Source: Acidimicrobiaceae bacterium
GTDB lineage: Bacteria; Actinomycetota; Acidimicrobiia; Acidimicrobiales; RAAP-2
Length of the DNA: 64,000 nt
NCBI GenBank assembly: GCA_003162395.1
Contig: PMON01000052.1
Location: 26,435 to 90,434 of the forward strand
Direction: 5' to 3'
The notes under the pieces are model-generated. The model was given only the letters and a program-made list of their open reading frames with translations, ran no database searches and was not told the DNA's origin. Below, piece after piece: positions 39,651-57,664 of the stretch (within the stretch, counting starts at the first letter, position 1; each line of letters opens with the position of its first letter). The position numbers and the translations under genes are program-made.

Positions 39651-39721
39651 CCTTGCTTCCTACCAGGTTCCGCCTGCACGAGTATCCACGCGGTCCTACG
39701 ATCGACGCCAATGGAAGACCG

Positions 39722-40534
39722 ATGACTGACGAGCTCGCCGACCACCTTCGCGAAGTTGCCGAGGATGGCTTCACCATCCTCGAGGACGTCATCGAGCCGC
39801 CGCTCATCGATGCCATCTCAGGCGACCTCGAGCGCCTCGAAGTTGAGCTCGGCATCGTGCCCGCGGACAATCTCTTCGAGGGCGTCCGGACGGTCAGGAT
39901 CTACAACCTCCTCGTGCACGGCGCGACGTTCGAGTCCATCCCGGTCCATCCAAGGGTCCTCCCTGTCGTGGAGGGCGTCCTTGACCCCGGCCTCTTGGTC
40001 TCGTCGCTCTCCTCCATCGCCATCGGGCCGGATGAAGCGGCTCAGATGCTCCACGCCGACGATCAGCTGATCCCCCTGCCACGGCCGCACGTCCCGATCA
40101 TCTGCAACACGATGTGGGCGATCACGGACTTCACCGAGGCGAACGGCGCGACGCGCCTCGTGCGGGGCTCGCATCTCTGGGCGCACACCCCCGGCTATCC
40201 GGAACACCACAAGACGATTCCGGCGGAGATGTCGAAGGGCAGCGTGCTCGTGTGGGTTGGCAGCCTGTGGCACGGGGGTGGCGCCAACATGACGGGCGAA
40301 CGTCGGACGGGCATCGCGATGAACTACTGCGCTGGCTTCATCCGCCAGCAGGAGAACCAGCAGCTCGGGATCCCCACCGATGTCGCACGGCGATTCTCGC
40401 CCCGACTCCAAGAACTCGTCGGCTACTCCGTCTATCAGGGCCTCGTCGGCCACATCGACAAGGCACATCCACGCGAGGTGGTGCTGGGAGCACGCGCCGA
40501 GCCGAACCTCGTCTGGGACGCAGCGAGGCCCTGA
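39722..40534 (+). CDS. Phytanoyl-CoA dioxygenase family 2-oxoglutarate oxygenase
   Basis: 270 residues. Fe(II)/2-oxoglutarate hydroxylase with the expected HxD iron pair in QMLHADDQL and the distal His in LWHGGGANMTGERRTGIAM, where Arg can bind 2-oxoglutarate. Actinobacterial members hydroxylate varied small molecules, not only phytanoyl-CoA; substrate unknown. GGAAG before ATG 39722 supports the start. Confidence 0.9.
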   Translation: MTDELADHLREVAEDGFTILEDVIEPPLIDAISGDLERLEVELGIVPADNLFEGVRTVRIYNLLVHGATFESIPVHPRVLPVVEGVLDPGLLVSSLSSIAIGPDEAAQMLHADDQLIPLPRPHVPIICNTMWAITDFTEANGATRLVRGSHLWAHTPGYPEHHKTIPAEMSKGSVLVWVGSLWHGGGANMTGERRTGIAMNYCAGFIRQQENQQLGIPTDVARRFSPRLQELVGYSVYQGLVGHIDKAHPREVVLGARAEPNLVWDAARP

Positions 40535-42582: not shown

Positions 42583-44541
42583 ATGCGGAAGAGGGCGGTG
42601 GGCTTCGCCGTGGCCGCCCTGCTCGCCGCGGCGCTCCCGGCCCTGTTCGGCACCACGGGCGCACTCGCCGCGACGGAGTTTCCTGCCAACGGGCTGGCCA
42701 CGAACTACGACTGGGCGTACCTCGTGCTCCAGGACGGCGGCTGGCCCAGCACGGCGAACAACCTCACCGTGATCACCCGGTGGATGGACTCCGAGGAGCC
42801 CGCGACGGACTGGTGGGACCGCAACAACCCGCTCAACAACGGACTTGGCTCCGGCGGCGGCTCGGGGCTCGGCAGGTACGCGAGCGTCGTGGATGCCGCG
42901 TACTTCGTCGCGGCGAACCTTGAGTACCACGGCCTCGGGTACCCCGCGATCGCTGCCGACCTCGCGGCGTCGGCAGCCCCCGGGGTCACGGCGAGGGCGA
43001 TCTGGGACTCGTCGTGGGCATCAGGTCACTACGGGCACGGGAAGAACTGGTTCTCGGGCACCGTGGCAGCTGTCTCGGCGCCACCGCAGGCATGGGGCAG
43101 CGACGTGATCATCAGGTATCCCCCGCACACGATCGGTCCCGGCGCCGACGACGGCTTCACCTTGAACGGTCCACCGCAGTATTGGCACTCGAGCGCACCC
43201 TTCGGTCTCGAGGGTGACGCACGATGGACATACTCGAACGGCGCGACGGGTGCCAACGGCGCGACGTGGGCTCCAACCCTCGCCACGGGAAGCTACAGCG
43301 TGCTCGCCTACGTGCCCGGCAGCTTTGCTGACGCGGTCGTCACCTACGTCGTGACCGACACGAGCGGCACGCACAAGGTGCTGATCGACCAGGCACCGTA
43401 CGCAGGCAAGTGGGTACCGCTGGGGCTGTTCACCGCGGGTGCCTCGCGCTCGATCAGCGTTCACGTCGGCAACACCAGCTCGGACCACGTCGGATCGACC
43501 TACGTCGGCGTGGACGCGATGGAGTTCGAGAGGGCCAGCGGGTCGATGACCTACCCGATGGACATCGTCGGCCCCGGTGGTGCCGGCTTCGTCCTCAGCG
43601 GACCCTCCCAGCCGTGGCACGCGGGCGCTCCCTACGGACTGAAGGGCAACGTCCAGTGGGCGACCTCGGGAGGCGCGTCAGGCAATGCCGCGGCACGGTG
43701 GTCGCCCACGCTCTCGCCGGGCTCCTATGACATCCAGGCATTCGTGCCCGCGAAGTACGCGACCGCCCACGTCACCTACGTCGTGACCGACACGGTGGGG
43801 ATGCACGACGTCGCTGTCGACCAGGCCAAGTTCTCGAACCAATGGGTGAACCTGGGCAAGTTCTCCACAGGGATGAGCGGCGGCATCAGCCTCCAGCTCA
43901 CCAATGCGAGCAGCGATCCCTCTGGCGCCACCGACGTCGGTGCCGACGCGGTGAAGTTCGTCGCGGCGGGAAGGCTCGTCCTCCCCGCGTCGTCGACCTC
44001 GTTCGCCGCGACGCCTGTGCGCAGCCAGTACGGGGCCGAGGTCGCCTACGCCGCGAGCGTCCTGGGCACCGGTGGCGCCCCAGCCGGCACCGTCATCTTC
44101 TCGATCGGCCCTCGAATGCTGTGCCCGGCGCAGATCACGTCCGGCACGGCGCAGTGCCAGACGAGCTACACGCCGGTCGGTGCCCGCGTCGTCACCGTCA
44201 GGTACCTGGGCAGCTCGAGCTTCGCCCCCTCGATGACGACCGGTTCCGTGGTCGTCGTGCGGGCCCCGTCGACGACCACGGTGACTGTGCATCCCGGCGC
44301 CGTGCTCCTTGGTGCCAGCGTCACCTACGACGTCTCGGCCGGTGGCACTGACGCGATCCCGTCGGGTGCCGTGACCATCGGCGTTGACGGGAAGGTCGTC
44401 TGCACCGCGCATCTGGTCGCGGGTGCCGGATCGTGCGCCGCGGTCAGCTCGCAGCGTGGGCGCCACGTGGTCTTCGCTCGCTATGGCGGCGATGGGCACT
44501 TCCTGGCGTCCGCCGACAGGTCGACGCTGACGGTCAGCTGA
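42583..44541 (+). CDS. Large secreted protein with two golvesin-like domains and Ig-like repeats
   Basis: 652 residues. Signal peptide: MRKRAVGFAVAALLAAALPA with the cut near GALAA. The N-terminal domain (about 30-170) reads as a possible muralytic or lysozyme-like region (NGLATNYDWAYLVL, HGKNWFSGTV) but lacks a sure catalytic motif. Two repeats of about 140 residues follow, each with the golvesin C-terminal pattern (GFTLNGPPQYWHSSAPFGLE / GFVLSGPSQPWHAGAPYGLK, TYVVTDT, VGVDAMEFE / VGADAVKFV). The C-terminal third is Ig-like (VIFSIGPRMLC, VTIGVDGKVVC). Probably a cell-wall or matrix protein. Confidence 0.83.
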   Translation: MRKRAVGFAVAALLAAALPALFGTTGALAATEFPANGLATNYDWAYLVLQDGGWPSTANNLTVITRWMDSEEPATDWWDRNNPLNNGLGSGGGSGLGRYASVVDAAYFVAANLEYHGLGYPAIAADLAASAAPGVTARAIWDSSWASGHYGHGKNWFSGTVAAVSAPPQAWGSDVIIRYPPHTIGPGADDGFTLNGPPQYWHSSAPFGLEGDARWTYSNGATGANGATWAPTLATGSYSVLAYVPGSFADAVVTYVVTDTSGTHKVLIDQAPYAGKWVPLGLFTAGASRSISVHVGNTSSDHVGSTYVGVDAMEFERASGSMTYPMDIVGPGGAGFVLSGPSQPWHAGAPYGLKGNVQWATSGGASGNAAARWSPTLSPGSYDIQAFVPAKYATAHVTYVVTDTVGMHDVAVDQAKFSNQWVNLGKFSTGMSGGISLQLTNASSDPSGATDVGADAVKFVAAGRLVLPASSTSFAATPVRSQYGAEVAYAASVLGTGGAPAGTVIFSIGPRMLCPAQITSGTAQCQTSYTPVGARVVTVRYLGSSSFAPSMTTGSVVVVRAPSTTTVTVHPGAVLLGASVTYDVSAGGTDAIPSGAVTIGVDGKVVCTAHLVAGAGSCAAVSSQRGRHVVFARYGGDGHFLASADRSTLTVS

Positions 44542-48154: not shown

Positions 48155-48898
48155 ATGACCGACGCTCGACGAGTGGCGCTCGTCGCCAGCACTGCGGGCT
48201 ACGTCGGCCCAGATCTCGCACGGAGCCTCGCGGCACGTGGACACGACCTCGTCATCGGTGATCCCGTTGACGGTCTCGTCGACGAGCTCACTGGCCTCGG
48301 TGCGACGGTCGAAGCCGTCACCGGCGTCCACAACCTGGCATCGCTTGCGTCAGCGACTGCGCTCGTGGAGGCCGCGGTCAGCCGATTCGGACGGATTGAC
48401 AGCGCGGTCGCCGCGACCGGGCGGATCGTCGTCGGCCGGTTCTTGAAGTCGAGCGTCGAGGACCTGCGCGCAGCCGTGGTCGGATGCCTCGAGGCGCCCT
48501 ACAACTTCCTGCGCGCCGTGGTGCCCGAGATGGTCGCCAAGGGCGAGGGTCAGGTGCTCGTGATCACGAGCGCGTCGGCGGTGCGACCCACGCCCGGCGC
48601 GCCGCTCTACTCATCGGCCCGGGCTGGTGCCAACATGCTCGTGCGCAACGTGGCCGATGAGATCGCCTCGACCGGGGTGCAGGTGAACTCGGTCGGCACC
48701 AACTTCATGGACTTCCCCGAGTTCCTCGCCGCGAGCAAGGCGACGACACCAGAGGGTCGAGCTCGTGTGGAGGCCCAGGTGCCGATGGGCAGGCTCGGGA
48801 CGATGCAGGAGTTCGCGTCGTTCTGCATGCCGTACCTCGACGGGACCAGCCGATTCACCACGGGCCAGTTCGTCGCCTACGCGGGCGGGTGGGCCTGA
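48155..48898 (+). CDS. Halohydrin dehalogenase-like SDR
   Basis: 247 residues. An SDR in which the catalytic Lys is replaced: Ser139, Tyr152 and Arg156 fit S-x12-Y-x3-R (ITSASAVRPTPGAPLYSSAR), the signature of halohydrin dehalogenases, which lack NAD(P)H and use the loop to bind halide. The loop ASTAGYVG (residues 11-18) matches T-x4-(F/Y)-x-G except for Ala in place of the first Thr. The C-terminal QVPMGRLGTMQEFASF and GQFVAYAGGW are close to HheC as I recall it. These enzymes open epoxides with halide or anions. Enzyme activity is inferred. A CMD-family gene follows closely. Confidence 0.8.
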   Translation: MTDARRVALVASTAGYVGPDLARSLAARGHDLVIGDPVDGLVDELTGLGATVEAVTGVHNLASLASATALVEAAVSRFGRIDSAVAATGRIVVGRFLKSSVEDLRAAVVGCLEAPYNFLRAVVPEMVAKGEGQVLVITSASAVRPTPGAPLYSSARAGANMLVRNVADEIASTGVQVNSVGTNFMDFPEFLAASKATTPEGRARVEAQVPMGRLGTMQEFASFCMPYLDGTSRFTTGQFVAYAGGWA

Positions 48899-48941: not shown

Positions 48942-49577
48942 TTGACTGCGCGAGACTTGCACCAACGGCCGCAACCGGCCGAGATCGTCGAGGAGGCTGG
49001 CTTGGCACGGATCGACCCGCTCACTCCCCCTTACGAGCCCGACGTCGCCGAGCGACTCGAGTCGATGATGCCGCCGGGTGCCCCTCCGTTGCTGCTGTTC
49101 CGCACGTTCGTGCGGAACCTGCCCATGGCCACGGCAATGGGAACCTGGGGAGGCTACGAGCTGAGCAAGCGCCTGTCGCTCTCGATGCGGGACCGCGAGG
49201 TCCTGATCGACCGCACCTGTGCGCGGTGCGCGTGCGAGTACGAGTGGGGCGTCCACGTGGCGTTCTTCGCGGACCGTGTGGGGCTCACCGGCGCACAGGT
49301 CACGTCGCTGACCCATGGCGACTCGACGGACCCCTGCTGGGACGAGGAGCGTGACCGCGTGCTGATCGACGCGGCCGATGCGCTCCACGAGACCGCAGGG
49401 ATCGACGATGCCCTCTGGACGCGCCTCGCGGGAGTCTTGTCCGAGCCCGAGCTGCTCGATCTGCTCATGCTCTGCGGGTGGTACCACGCGATCAGCTTCA
49501 CCGCGAACGGCATCGGGCTCCAGCTCGAAGACGGCGTCCCTCGATTCGCCGACGTTCGCCAGGGTCCCGTGGCCTGA
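48942..49577 (+). CDS. Carboxymuconolactone decarboxylase-like (AhpD fold) protein
   Basis: 211 residues from TTG 48942 (start uncertain; a GAGGAGG lies at 48915-48921 but no close start codon follows it). RTCARCACEYEWGVHVAFFA carries a CxxCxC redox-like motif in the CMD/AhpD helical fold, with ELLDLLMLCGWYHAISFTANG downstream. Members decarboxylate small lactones or act as thiol reductases. It begins about 40 bases after the halohydrin dehalogenase-like gene, suggesting one transcript for degradation of a small molecule. Confidence 0.8.
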   Translation: MTARDLHQRPQPAEIVEEAGLARIDPLTPPYEPDVAERLESMMPPGAPPLLLFRTFVRNLPMATAMGTWGGYELSKRLSLSMRDREVLIDRTCARCACEYEWGVHVAFFADRVGLTGAQVTSLTHGDSTDPCWDEERDRVLIDAADALHETAGIDDALWTRLAGVLSEPELLDLLMLCGWYHAISFTANGIGLQLEDGVPRFADVRQGPVA

Positions 49578-54946: not shown

Positions 54947-55909
54947 TCACCTCGACTGTCGGGGGCTCGCGAGGTACGCGACCATCCCCTCTGCAATTGC
55001 GGTTGCAGCCTGACGTTGCCAGCGAGGATCGATGAGCAGTGCGGCGTCGGTGGCGTTGCGCATATTGCCGCACTCAATGAAGACCTTGGGCACTGTCGAC
55101 AGGTTCGTGCCTCCGAGGTCGTCTCGTGGCTCGATGCCGTCCGTGCCGTCGTACGTGGAGACGGGCATTCCCGTGCGAAGGAACGCGGTGCGAAGTGCCT
55201 GAGCGAAGTGGAGCGACGGCGCGATGATTCGGTTGTTGATGCCATCGGCAACGGGTGTGAGGATCGCGAAGCCACGGCCACTTGGAGGTCCCCCGTCGGC
55301 ATGGATCGAGATCGCGACCGACGCATGGGCGCGATTGCCGATCGCGGCACGCTGGGTGATGCAGGGGCCATAGGTGGTGTTGGAGGACCTGGTGAGCACG
55401 ACCGTGGCCCCCAGGTTGCGCAGGTCTGTCTCGAGGTCGAGCGCCACGTCCCAGTTGAACTGCGCCTCTGTGGAGCCAGCGTCCGTCGCGGTCCCCGTCG
55501 TGTCGCAGGCCTCGTCTTCTCGACCGTTCCAGACGAGATGGTTGATGTAGGTGGGATGTGCGTAGTTCTCCCCGTTGTGGCCAGGGTCGATCGCGATGAC
55601 GTCGCCCCGGAGGGGTCCTCGATGGCTCGACGAGAGCGTGATCGGCATCGCGAGCCCACCACCTGGACCATTGAGCCCCGGTGTCGTCGTCGTCGTGGAG
55701 CTCGTGGACGATGACGGTGGTGTCGAGGTCGTGCTCGACGTGGTGGGGGGCGGTCGCAAAGAGGACGTCGTCGTGGTCGACGCGGGGACAGCGGCAGGGA
55801 TGGTGACGAATGCCACGAGGGCCGCTGCGGCTACCAACGCCAAGAGCACGCTCGCAACGAGCACTCGCGACGCTCGTCGAGCTCTTCGACGTCGTCGCCC
55901 TTTACTCAC
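54947..55909 (-). CDS. Secreted N-acetylmuramoyl-L-alanine amidase (Amidase_3)
   Basis: 320 residues from GTG 55909 (GAGG upstream; GTG 55927 is a possible alternative). A strong N-terminal membrane segment or signal (RVLVASVLLALVAAAALVAF) precedes a Thr/Ser/Pro-rich linker. The amidase domain keeps the zinc ligands: IAIDPGHNGENYAHP, STEAQFNWDVAL (Glu), VAISIHADGG (His) and catalytic KVFIECGNMRN. It cuts the bond between muramic acid and the stem peptide in septal or wall remodelling. Probably membrane-anchored outside. Confidence 0.9.
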   Translation of the reverse strand: MSKGRRRRRARRASRVLVASVLLALVAAAALVAFVTIPAAVPASTTTTSSLRPPPTTSSTTSTPPSSSTSSTTTTTPGLNGPGGGLAMPITLSSSHRGPLRGDVIAIDPGHNGENYAHPTYINHLVWNGREDEACDTTGTATDAGSTEAQFNWDVALDLETDLRNLGATVVLTRSSNTTYGPCITQRAAIGNRAHASVAISIHADGGPPSGRGFAILTPVADGINNRIIAPSLHFAQALRTAFLRTGMPVSTYDGTDGIEPRDDLGGTNLSTVPKVFIECGNMRNATDAALLIDPRWQRQAATAIAEGMVAYLASPRQSR

Positions 55910-56437
55910 AGCCGCCTCTTTGCGCACGCTCTCGACTCAGGATTGATCCTTGCTGAGCGCTCGTTGGACGACGTCGCTCATCTCGCGCGCGCGCTTGGCA
56001 TGGAGCGCCAGCAACGCCACCGAGGCAGAGGAGGGATCCGAATTGCCATGCATTCAGCGTATCCGTGCTCTTCTTACAAGGACGTGCACGATCAGCGATC
56101 TCGACCGTCGACGACGGCGAGCCGTCTGACTCCATGCGCGTCGAGACTGTCGACGCCGCTCCTGGCACTGAGCCTGGATGGTGGCGCGGGACGCCTGCGT
56201 CCGCTCCTCGTCAGGGCTGGGTCGAACAACCGTGCTCCGATGCAGGTGTCGAAGGCCATGGAAGCGCCGCGTCCGCATCCGTCAGATTGGCCAACGAGTG
56301 AGGGTGGCACCGGGGGCAGGGTCGCCACACATGTCGGTGATCGCCAGTGGTCCCGGAAGGATCGTGGTGCCGCGCGTCAAGCGCTCGCCCACTCGGCCGT
56401 AGGATCGATCGATTGCCATCGCACCGAGAAGGAGATC
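55910..56437. other. Divergent intergenic region
   Basis: About 530 bases between the wall amidase and the phosphoesterase. No credible gene or known RNA motif was seen. The promoters of both genes should be here. Confidence 0.45.
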
Positions 56438-57664
56438 ATGGCGGAGCGAGATGACCACGATCGCCTGACACGACGTCACTTCCTAGGGGCGTCGGCCGCG
56501 ATCGCGGCCGGCGTTGCCGCGATGACCGGCGAAGGCGTCGCAGGTGCGCACGAAGGTCGGCGATCGGGACCGACGCTTCTTGGACGTGCGAGGCGGACAA
56601 GCCCGGTCAAGACGATCGTGGTCAGCTGTCAGGAGAACCACTCCTTCGACAACTACTTCGGGTCCCTCCCCAGGCTCCCCGCTGGCTTCGGCATTCCGAG
56701 GGGATGGCAGAACAGCGGCGTCAAGCCGTTCCACATCGCGACGCTGACCGACAATGGCTACGACCCGGACCACGGCTGGACCGCGACGCACGAAGCCTAC
56801 GCCGGCGGAAGGATGAACGGCTTCGTGAACAACGGCAACGGGAGTGGCGCGATGGGCTACTACACGTCCACCGACATCCCGTACTACTACTCCCTCGCCG
56901 AGAGGTACACGCTCTGCGCTGAGTACTTCTGCGGCGTGCTCACCGACACGGTACCGAACCGCATGGTGCTGTACGCCGGGACGAGCGGGGGCATCACCAG
57001 TGACACGGCACCGCCGCGGGGCGCGCTCAGGTGGCCGAACATCATCACGCTCCTCGATGAGGCAGGCATCACGTACGCCAACTACAACTTCCACTGCCCG
57101 GACGACTACTCCTGCCTCTCGCTCTGGAAGAACGCCTATCGCGCACCGCGAATGAACCAGTCCATGGCGGCCTTCTTCAAGGCCTGCAGGGACGGGACGC
57201 TGCCCCAGGTCGTGTTCATCGAGAAGCAGTCGCCGTGGGACGAGCACCCGCCCGCGAACATCCAGGCGGGCGAGAAGATGATGGAACAGATCTTCAATGC
57301 GATCGAGACGGGACCGCAGTGGGAGCACACGGCGATCCTGCACACCTACGACGAGGGCGGCGGCTTCTTCGACCACCGGGCGCCGGCCAGGCTCGACGCG
57401 TTCGGATCGGGCATCCGGGTTCCGATGATCGTCGCGTCCCCGCTGGCCAAGGAGCGTCACGTCAACACGGCGTACTCGGACCACGGCTCGGTCCTCAAGT
57501 TCATCGAGCACGTGTTCGGCCTGCCGACCCTGGCCTCCATCAACCACGAGTTCGACAGGTCGACGCCGAAAGGGGCTGGTCGAGGTCGCGGCGAGGCATT
57601 CCCTCCGCGTGACGGCAAGTTCAGGATCAGCAATCTGACCCAATGCTTCACGGTGGAGGTCTAG
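56438..57664 (+). CDS. Tat-exported phosphoesterase (phospholipase C-like)
   Basis: 408 residues. Twin-arginine signal RLTRRHFLGASAAIAAGVAA; the phosphoesterase family start VVSCQENHSFDNYFG follows, with TDTVPNRMVLYAGTS, KQSPWDEHPP and HTYDEGGGFFDH as later metal or substrate segments. This is the PF04185 family including acid phosphatases and phospholipases C. AGAAGGAG precedes ATG 56438. Substrate: phosphate ester or phospholipid, not resolvable. Confidence 0.92.
   Translation: MAERDDHDRLTRRHFLGASAAIAAGVAAMTGEGVAGAHEGRRSGPTLLGRARRTSPVKTIVVSCQENHSFDNYFGSLPRLPAGFGIPRGWQNSGVKPFHIATLTDNGYDPDHGWTATHEAYAGGRMNGFVNNGNGSGAMGYYTSTDIPYYYSLAERYTLCAEYFCGVLTDTVPNRMVLYAGTSGGITSDTAPPRGALRWPNIITLLDEAGITYANYNFHCPDDYSCLSLWKNAYRAPRMNQSMAAFFKACRDGTLPQVVFIEKQSPWDEHPPANIQAGEKMMEQIFNAIETGPQWEHTAILHTYDEGGGFFDHRAPARLDAFGSGIRVPMIVASPLAKERHVNTAYSDHGSVLKFIEHVFGLPTLASINHEFDRSTPKGAGRGRGEAFPPRDGKFRISNLTQCFTVEV

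Follow-up and report, generated by a model that had tools for sequence, protein, structure and literature searches.

A Very Probable G-Type Halohydrin Dehalogenase without the Motif-1 Threonine in an Acidimicrobiaceae Bacterium, and the Genomic Setting of Its Relatives

The Candidate Gene and Its Surroundings

The DNA analyzed, referred to here as the window, is a stretch of 64,000 nucleotides of contig PMON01000052.1 from the Acidimicrobiaceae bacterium assembly GCA_003162395.1. On its forward strand, positions 48155–48898 (ATG to TGA, 247 codons plus stop) are predicted to encode a G-type halohydrin dehalogenase (HHDH). Residues 11–18 of the protein (ASTAGYVG; 48185–48208, forward strand) constitute motif 1, the nucleophile-pocket motif, with an Ala in the place of Thr, and residues 35–41 (GDPVDGL; 48257–48277, forward strand) form a short linker in the alignment to HheG (6I9W). 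The sequence and the alignment of homologues place the predicted catalytic Ser-Tyr-Arg of motif 2 (S139-x12-Y152-x3-R156) at 48569–48622 of the same strand. A putative nucleophile-binding loop, assigned by homology, follows at residues 178–190 (NSVGTNFMDFPEF; 48686–48724, forward strand); it aligns with the HheG segment NAIGTNYMDFPGF, and its N178, G181, N183, D186, F187 and F190 are invariant among 58 sequences. The first-pass annotation of this DNA had pointed to a triad with Arg for Lys and to a Y-x-G halide motif with Ala for Thr, both of which are found as described, the latter as A11-x4-Y16-x-G18.

The SDR dinucleotide motif TGxxxGxG is replaced in the window protein by A11-S-T-A-G-Y16-V-G18 and the SDR Y-x3-K by Y-x3-R; four true SDRs of the same genome have Y-x3-K. 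In an alignment of 95 rows, made up of the query together with 94 homologous loci, of which two duplicate the window gene or that of the congener, the Ser, Tyr and Arg of motif 2, the Gly of motif 1 and the motif-1 aromatic residue (Y16 in the query) are each present in 95 of 95 rows, so that the motifs are not attributable to chance. The window genome holds no other close copy of the gene, and its 20 other SDR-like matches score at most 54 bits vs 519 bits for the self-match.

Upstream of the HHDH gene, an MscS-like gene lies on the opposite strand. Downstream, a short forward-strand ORF ends at 49577 and may begin at 48942, its start codon being unclear; it has a weak NCBIfam match to a YciW-related protein (21 bits), with no Pfam family and no PDB match. 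An operon of the two genes was considered and rejected: ORFs homologous to the downstream one are found near the HHDH gene in only 2 of the 94 other loci, and the sequence that follows the HHDH gene in the congener (locus L009) is unrelated. Other genes in the window include those encoding a PhyH-family protein resembling Fe(II)/2-oxoglutarate dioxygenases (39653–40534, about 8 kb upstream of the HHDH gene), a protein with golvesin C-terminal and bacterial Ig-like domains (42583–44541), an N-acetylmuramoyl-L-alanine amidase (54947–55927, reverse strand) and a phosphoesterase-family protein (56438–57664, forward strand). The PhyH-family protein keeps the H-x-D motif and was therefore rejected as a candidate halogenase by this test; it looks like a dioxygenase.

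Relationship to G-Type Halohydrin Dehalogenases

In a phmmer search against the PDB, the window protein matched 7WKQ (362 bits), probably the protein of Wang et al. (2022), AbHheG (8H8Y; 339 bits) and HheG (195–198 bits), with identities of 69.7, 65.4 and 45.9%, respectively. HheC, HheA2, HheB and HheD2 scored 60–74 bits, no better than ordinary SDRs, which reached at most about 73–77 bits. In a phylogenetic tree of 74 rows, the query, 7WKQ, AbHheG and HheG fell into a G-type clade of 64 rows (support 100/99), within which the query, 7WKQ and AbHheG shared a branch (97/90) and HheG together with loci L020 and L021 formed its sister clade; locus L025 is the 7WKQ gene itself (tree distance 0). 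The HheA, HheB, HheC and HheD types and the four SDRs taken from the window genome were outside the G-type clade, these SDRs forming a clade of their own, though with long branches. This tree includes 6A41 and 8XXB without a subtype label, and subtypes E and F are not placed in it by name.

An AlphaFold2 model of the window protein built from 58 sequences (pLDDT 95.1, pTM 0.92) was compared with the PDB by Foldseek. The first 25 matches are all AbHheG, 7WKQ or HheG, of which the best has an E-value of 7.6e-37 and a TM-score of 0.97; the next match is an SDR (E-value 2.7e-19), and the E-values of SDRs trail that of the best G-type match by at least ten orders of magnitude and that of the last by eight. 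General SDR families are all that Pfam and NCBIfam return, and every NCBIfam match falls below its cut-off, which bears out the earlier remark that such a gene is easily annotated as an ordinary SDR.

The phylogeny and the structural comparison, which had been suggested as checks, thus agree with the motifs and support the candidate assignment: the window protein is predicted to be of the halohydrin dehalogenase type and not an NAD(P)-dependent SDR. Specifically, sequence and model indicate that the gene very probably encodes a G-type HHDH of the short-loop branch without the motif-1 Thr, of which 7WKQ and AbHheG are typical.

7WKQ and AbHheG both come from Acidimicrobiia bacteria. The former shares with the window protein the short loop, motif 2, the absence of the motif-1 Thr and the tree branch, but has Gly where the window protein has Ala; the latter, which superimposes on the window model with a TM-score of 0.97 and an rmsd of 1.0, also has the short loop, with Ser at that position. 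HheG of Ilumatobacter coccineus (5O30, 6I9W; TM-score 0.94) has the triad and the VGTN-MDFP loop in common with the window protein, but it possesses the motif-1 Thr and a long flexible loop (residues 39–47) instead of Ala11 and the short GDPVDGL linker; the flexible loop of HheG and a DPAE linker of a homologue have been described (PMC11536340). HheC, HheA2, HheB and HheD2 share the SDR fold, Ser-Tyr-Arg and the motif-1 aromatic residue and Gly, although their identity to the window protein is only about 29–34% over the aligned part. The reported likeness of the C-terminus to that of HheC holds in a general way but not in detail: identity to HheC is 29%, and the window protein ends directly after AGGWA and thus has no HheC-like C-terminal extension.

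Distribution and Neighbors of the Homologs

Of 395 genomes sampled from the class, 55, representing 34 of 184 genera, have a homolog at an E-value of 1e-40 or below, as do 14 of 61 relatives. These counts do not support the earlier supposition that such enzymes are rare. A scan of genome contigs retained 80 of 97 loci, most of them labeled Acidimicrobiia or Actinomycetota. The contigs of L039, L048, L054, L066, L093, L055 and L080 are labeled Bifidobacterium breve or Chloroflexi, and their HHDHs resemble the Acidimicrobiia branch, inside which those of L048, L055 and L066 group in the tree; these labels may be wrong.

Dereplication at 85% identity sorts the 94 HHDH loci into 60 groups. The ORFs surrounding the loci were called mechanically and clustered after an all-against-all comparison. 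The recurrent neighbors include formylglycine-type sulfatases (PF00884; 29 loci, 15 of the 60 groups), TetR regulators (18 loci, 13 groups), class-I haloalkane dehalogenases (14 loci, 10 groups), DinB-like genes resembling mycothiol transferases (13 loci, 9 groups) and DUF2855 (8 loci, 5 groups). The active site of the sulfatases reads CSPTR or CSPSR in 25 of 29. A representative haloalkane dehalogenase scores 465 bits against NF002043 (cut-off 265), and QDWGG, the second Trp, the Asp and the His are invariant among these neighbors. The DinB-like protein reaches only 37 bits against NF047843 (cut-off 170) and is thus a distant relative. Gene order and strand vary among the neighborhoods. In L056 the genes encoding the HHDH, the sulfatase and the DinB protein have overlaps of 4 bp each, and a TetR regulator, an MBL-fold protein and a haloalkane dehalogenase are encoded on the opposite strand; in L055 a haloalkane dehalogenase, DUF2855 and the HHDH are encoded on one strand. 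The 7WKQ locus (L025:7989–10189) has genes for a sulfatase and an SDR upstream of the HHDH gene on the opposite strand and, directly downstream of it, one of the Rv2466c-like mycothiol-dependent nitroreductase family and one encoding an MDMPI_N mycothiol-dependent enzyme. At many HHDH loci, none of the sulfatase, haloalkane dehalogenase and DinB genes is a neighbor.

Among 63 HHDH-positive genomes, 57 contain a haloalkane dehalogenase gene, mostly in one copy, and seven haloalkane dehalogenase-HHDH pairs lie within 10 kb, with about 0.4 expected at uniform placement. A sulfatase gene is found at most 6 kb from the HHDH gene in at least 18 genomes of at least about 11 genera (about 1.6 expected), and a DinB-type gene within 40 bp in seven genomes; the expectations presuppose that genes are placed at random, and the mean copy numbers and the genome size of 3 Mb that went into them are rounded. 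In the draw from the class, DinB is present in 37 of 55 HHDH-positive vs 37 of 340 negative genomes and the haloalkane dehalogenase, drawn from 390 genomes vs 395 for the HHDH, in 50 of 55 vs 167 of 335; several genomes share a genus and the counts are uncorrected for phylogeny, so that p-values mean only "far from random."

Neither a sulfatase nor a haloalkane dehalogenase gene lies beside the window HHDH gene, unlike at the 7WKQ locus, where sulfatase and mycothiol-enzyme genes adjoin; the best-scoring homologs are on contigs C56 and C45, respectively, and the HHDH gene is on contig C17, apart from the sulfatase, haloalkane dehalogenase and DinB partners. The single haloalkane dehalogenase of the window genome, on C45, scores 404 bits. 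The C56 sulfatase is 71% identical to the sulfatase beside the HHDH gene of L057, and its gene adjoins a DinB gene that is 77% identical to that of L032.

Catalysis, Motif-1 Variation and Possible Roles

By analogy to the established chemistry of HheC and HheG, Arg156 would lower the pKa of Tyr152, which would accept the proton of a substrate hydroxyl held by Ser139; the resulting alkoxide would displace the neighboring halide to form an epoxide, and the halide would exit into the pocket that motif 1 lines, which in an SDR holds the cofactor. In the reverse reaction a small anion would open an epoxide, and NAD(P) would be used in neither direction. The β-chloroalcohols tested were barely dehalogenated by HheG, HheG2 and HheG3, which do open cyclic epoxides (PMC10099379), and dehalogenation may for this reason not be the physiological direction. 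We infer a preference of the window enzyme for bulky internal halohydrins or epoxides.

The published motif-1 fingerprint of most HHDHs is T-x4-F/Y-x-G (PMC11976700), and its Thr, published in 2014, is absent from the window protein (Ala11). Across the 95 rows, this position is occupied by Ala in 48, Asn in 21, Gly in 7, His in 7, Ser in 5, Thr in 5 and other residues in 2. With Thr in only 5 of 95 rows and two natural HHDHs already known to vary there (PMC11976700), the Thr is no defining feature of the branch; it appears relaxed across the whole branch, since the residue varies while the aromatic residue and Gly are invariant in kind. Ala being the commonest residue there and the query lying inside the branch of 7WKQ and AbHheG, the possibility of a new subtype raised in the first-pass annotation is not upheld. 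Judged by its sequence, the window protein is a known kind of enzyme, one more G-type HHDH.

Nevertheless, when the Thr was mutated in HheC (T7) and HheG (T13), only Ser retained activity and the other mutants were inactive (PMC11976700), from which it could be argued, given the variability of the position in the branch, that the window protein is a degenerate or repurposed HHDH fold with no halohydrin or epoxide activity. We consider this very unlikely, as 7WKQ with Gly and AbHheG with Ser are reported as working HHDHs in literature cited by PMC11976700, none of the other catalytic positions varies, and the dN/dS of 0.08 between the window gene and its congener L009 (89% identical), indicative of strong purifying selection, argues against a dead enzyme. 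The alternative that the protein is an NAD(P)-dependent SDR of the ordinary kind, whose Lys changed to Arg by chance, would fit the general families found in Pfam and NCBIfam and the SDR fold, SDRs matching the model at a TM-score of about 0.83. The first two glycines of TGxxxGxG are both broken, however, the Arg is invariant throughout the homologous rows, and the nearest proteins are crystallized HHDHs at 65–70% identity, all of which makes an SDR extremely improbable.

For the cellular role of what is most probably a working G-type HHDH, two readings are to be weighed. We tentatively propose, with somewhat less than even confidence, that the G-type HHDHs of Acidimicrobiia are part of a catabolic module for degrading natural organohalogens, the other members of which would be a sulfatase of the formylglycine type, a haloalkane dehalogenase of class I and an enzyme that depends on mycothiol (DinB or MDMPI). 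In such a module, the sulfatase would cleave a natural sulfate ester that carries halogen and so free a β-halo alcohol, the HHDH would close this alcohol to an internal epoxide and the haloalkane dehalogenase would strip other halogens; because enzymes of the DinB family join mycothiol to electrophiles (review PMC4360819), mycothiol could serve to trap the epoxide. For the window gene itself, with the partners present in the genome but the HHDH gene apart from them, the module is deduced from relatives. It is also quite possible, if short of probable, that the enzyme is an HHDH that clears reactive epoxides or haloalcohols in general and has no connection with sulfate esters or haloalkane dehalogenases, and that its neighbors merely share catabolic islands. 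The dispersal of the partners in the window genome and the many HHDH loci without them are consistent with this role, as are genomes G026, G294, G042, G086, G298, G387, G399 and G428, in which no more than a few kb separate a haloalkane dehalogenase gene from a sulfatase gene and the HHDH gene lies elsewhere; the DinB-type genes within 40 bp and the 4-bp overlaps of L056, however, are tighter than a shared island needs.

Chlorosulfolipids are known from freshwater chrysophytes and have been found in coastal waters (PMC13413282), and algal chlorosulfolipids might, speculatively, be one possible substrate class of the proposed module. Our literature search found no publication in which HHDH is connected with haloalkane dehalogenase and sulfatase, and none of relevance to bacterial chlorosulfolipid degradation.

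The window enzyme would add a naturally occurring Ala variant to the branch that lacks the Thr; the same substitution killed activity in the mutagenesis of HheG and HheC. The HHDH literature cited here deals mainly with synthetic use, and the natural role is only presumed to be detoxification or degradation of haloalcohols. A point larger than the single enzyme is that the genomic setting of the branch hints at its natural function: this context suggests that the branch may serve the breakdown of natural halogenated, perhaps sulfated, compounds. With genes for sulfatases, haloalkane dehalogenases and mycothiol enzymes recurring beside those of the branch, the question of the natural substrate becomes testable, even for the crystallized 7WKQ enzyme.
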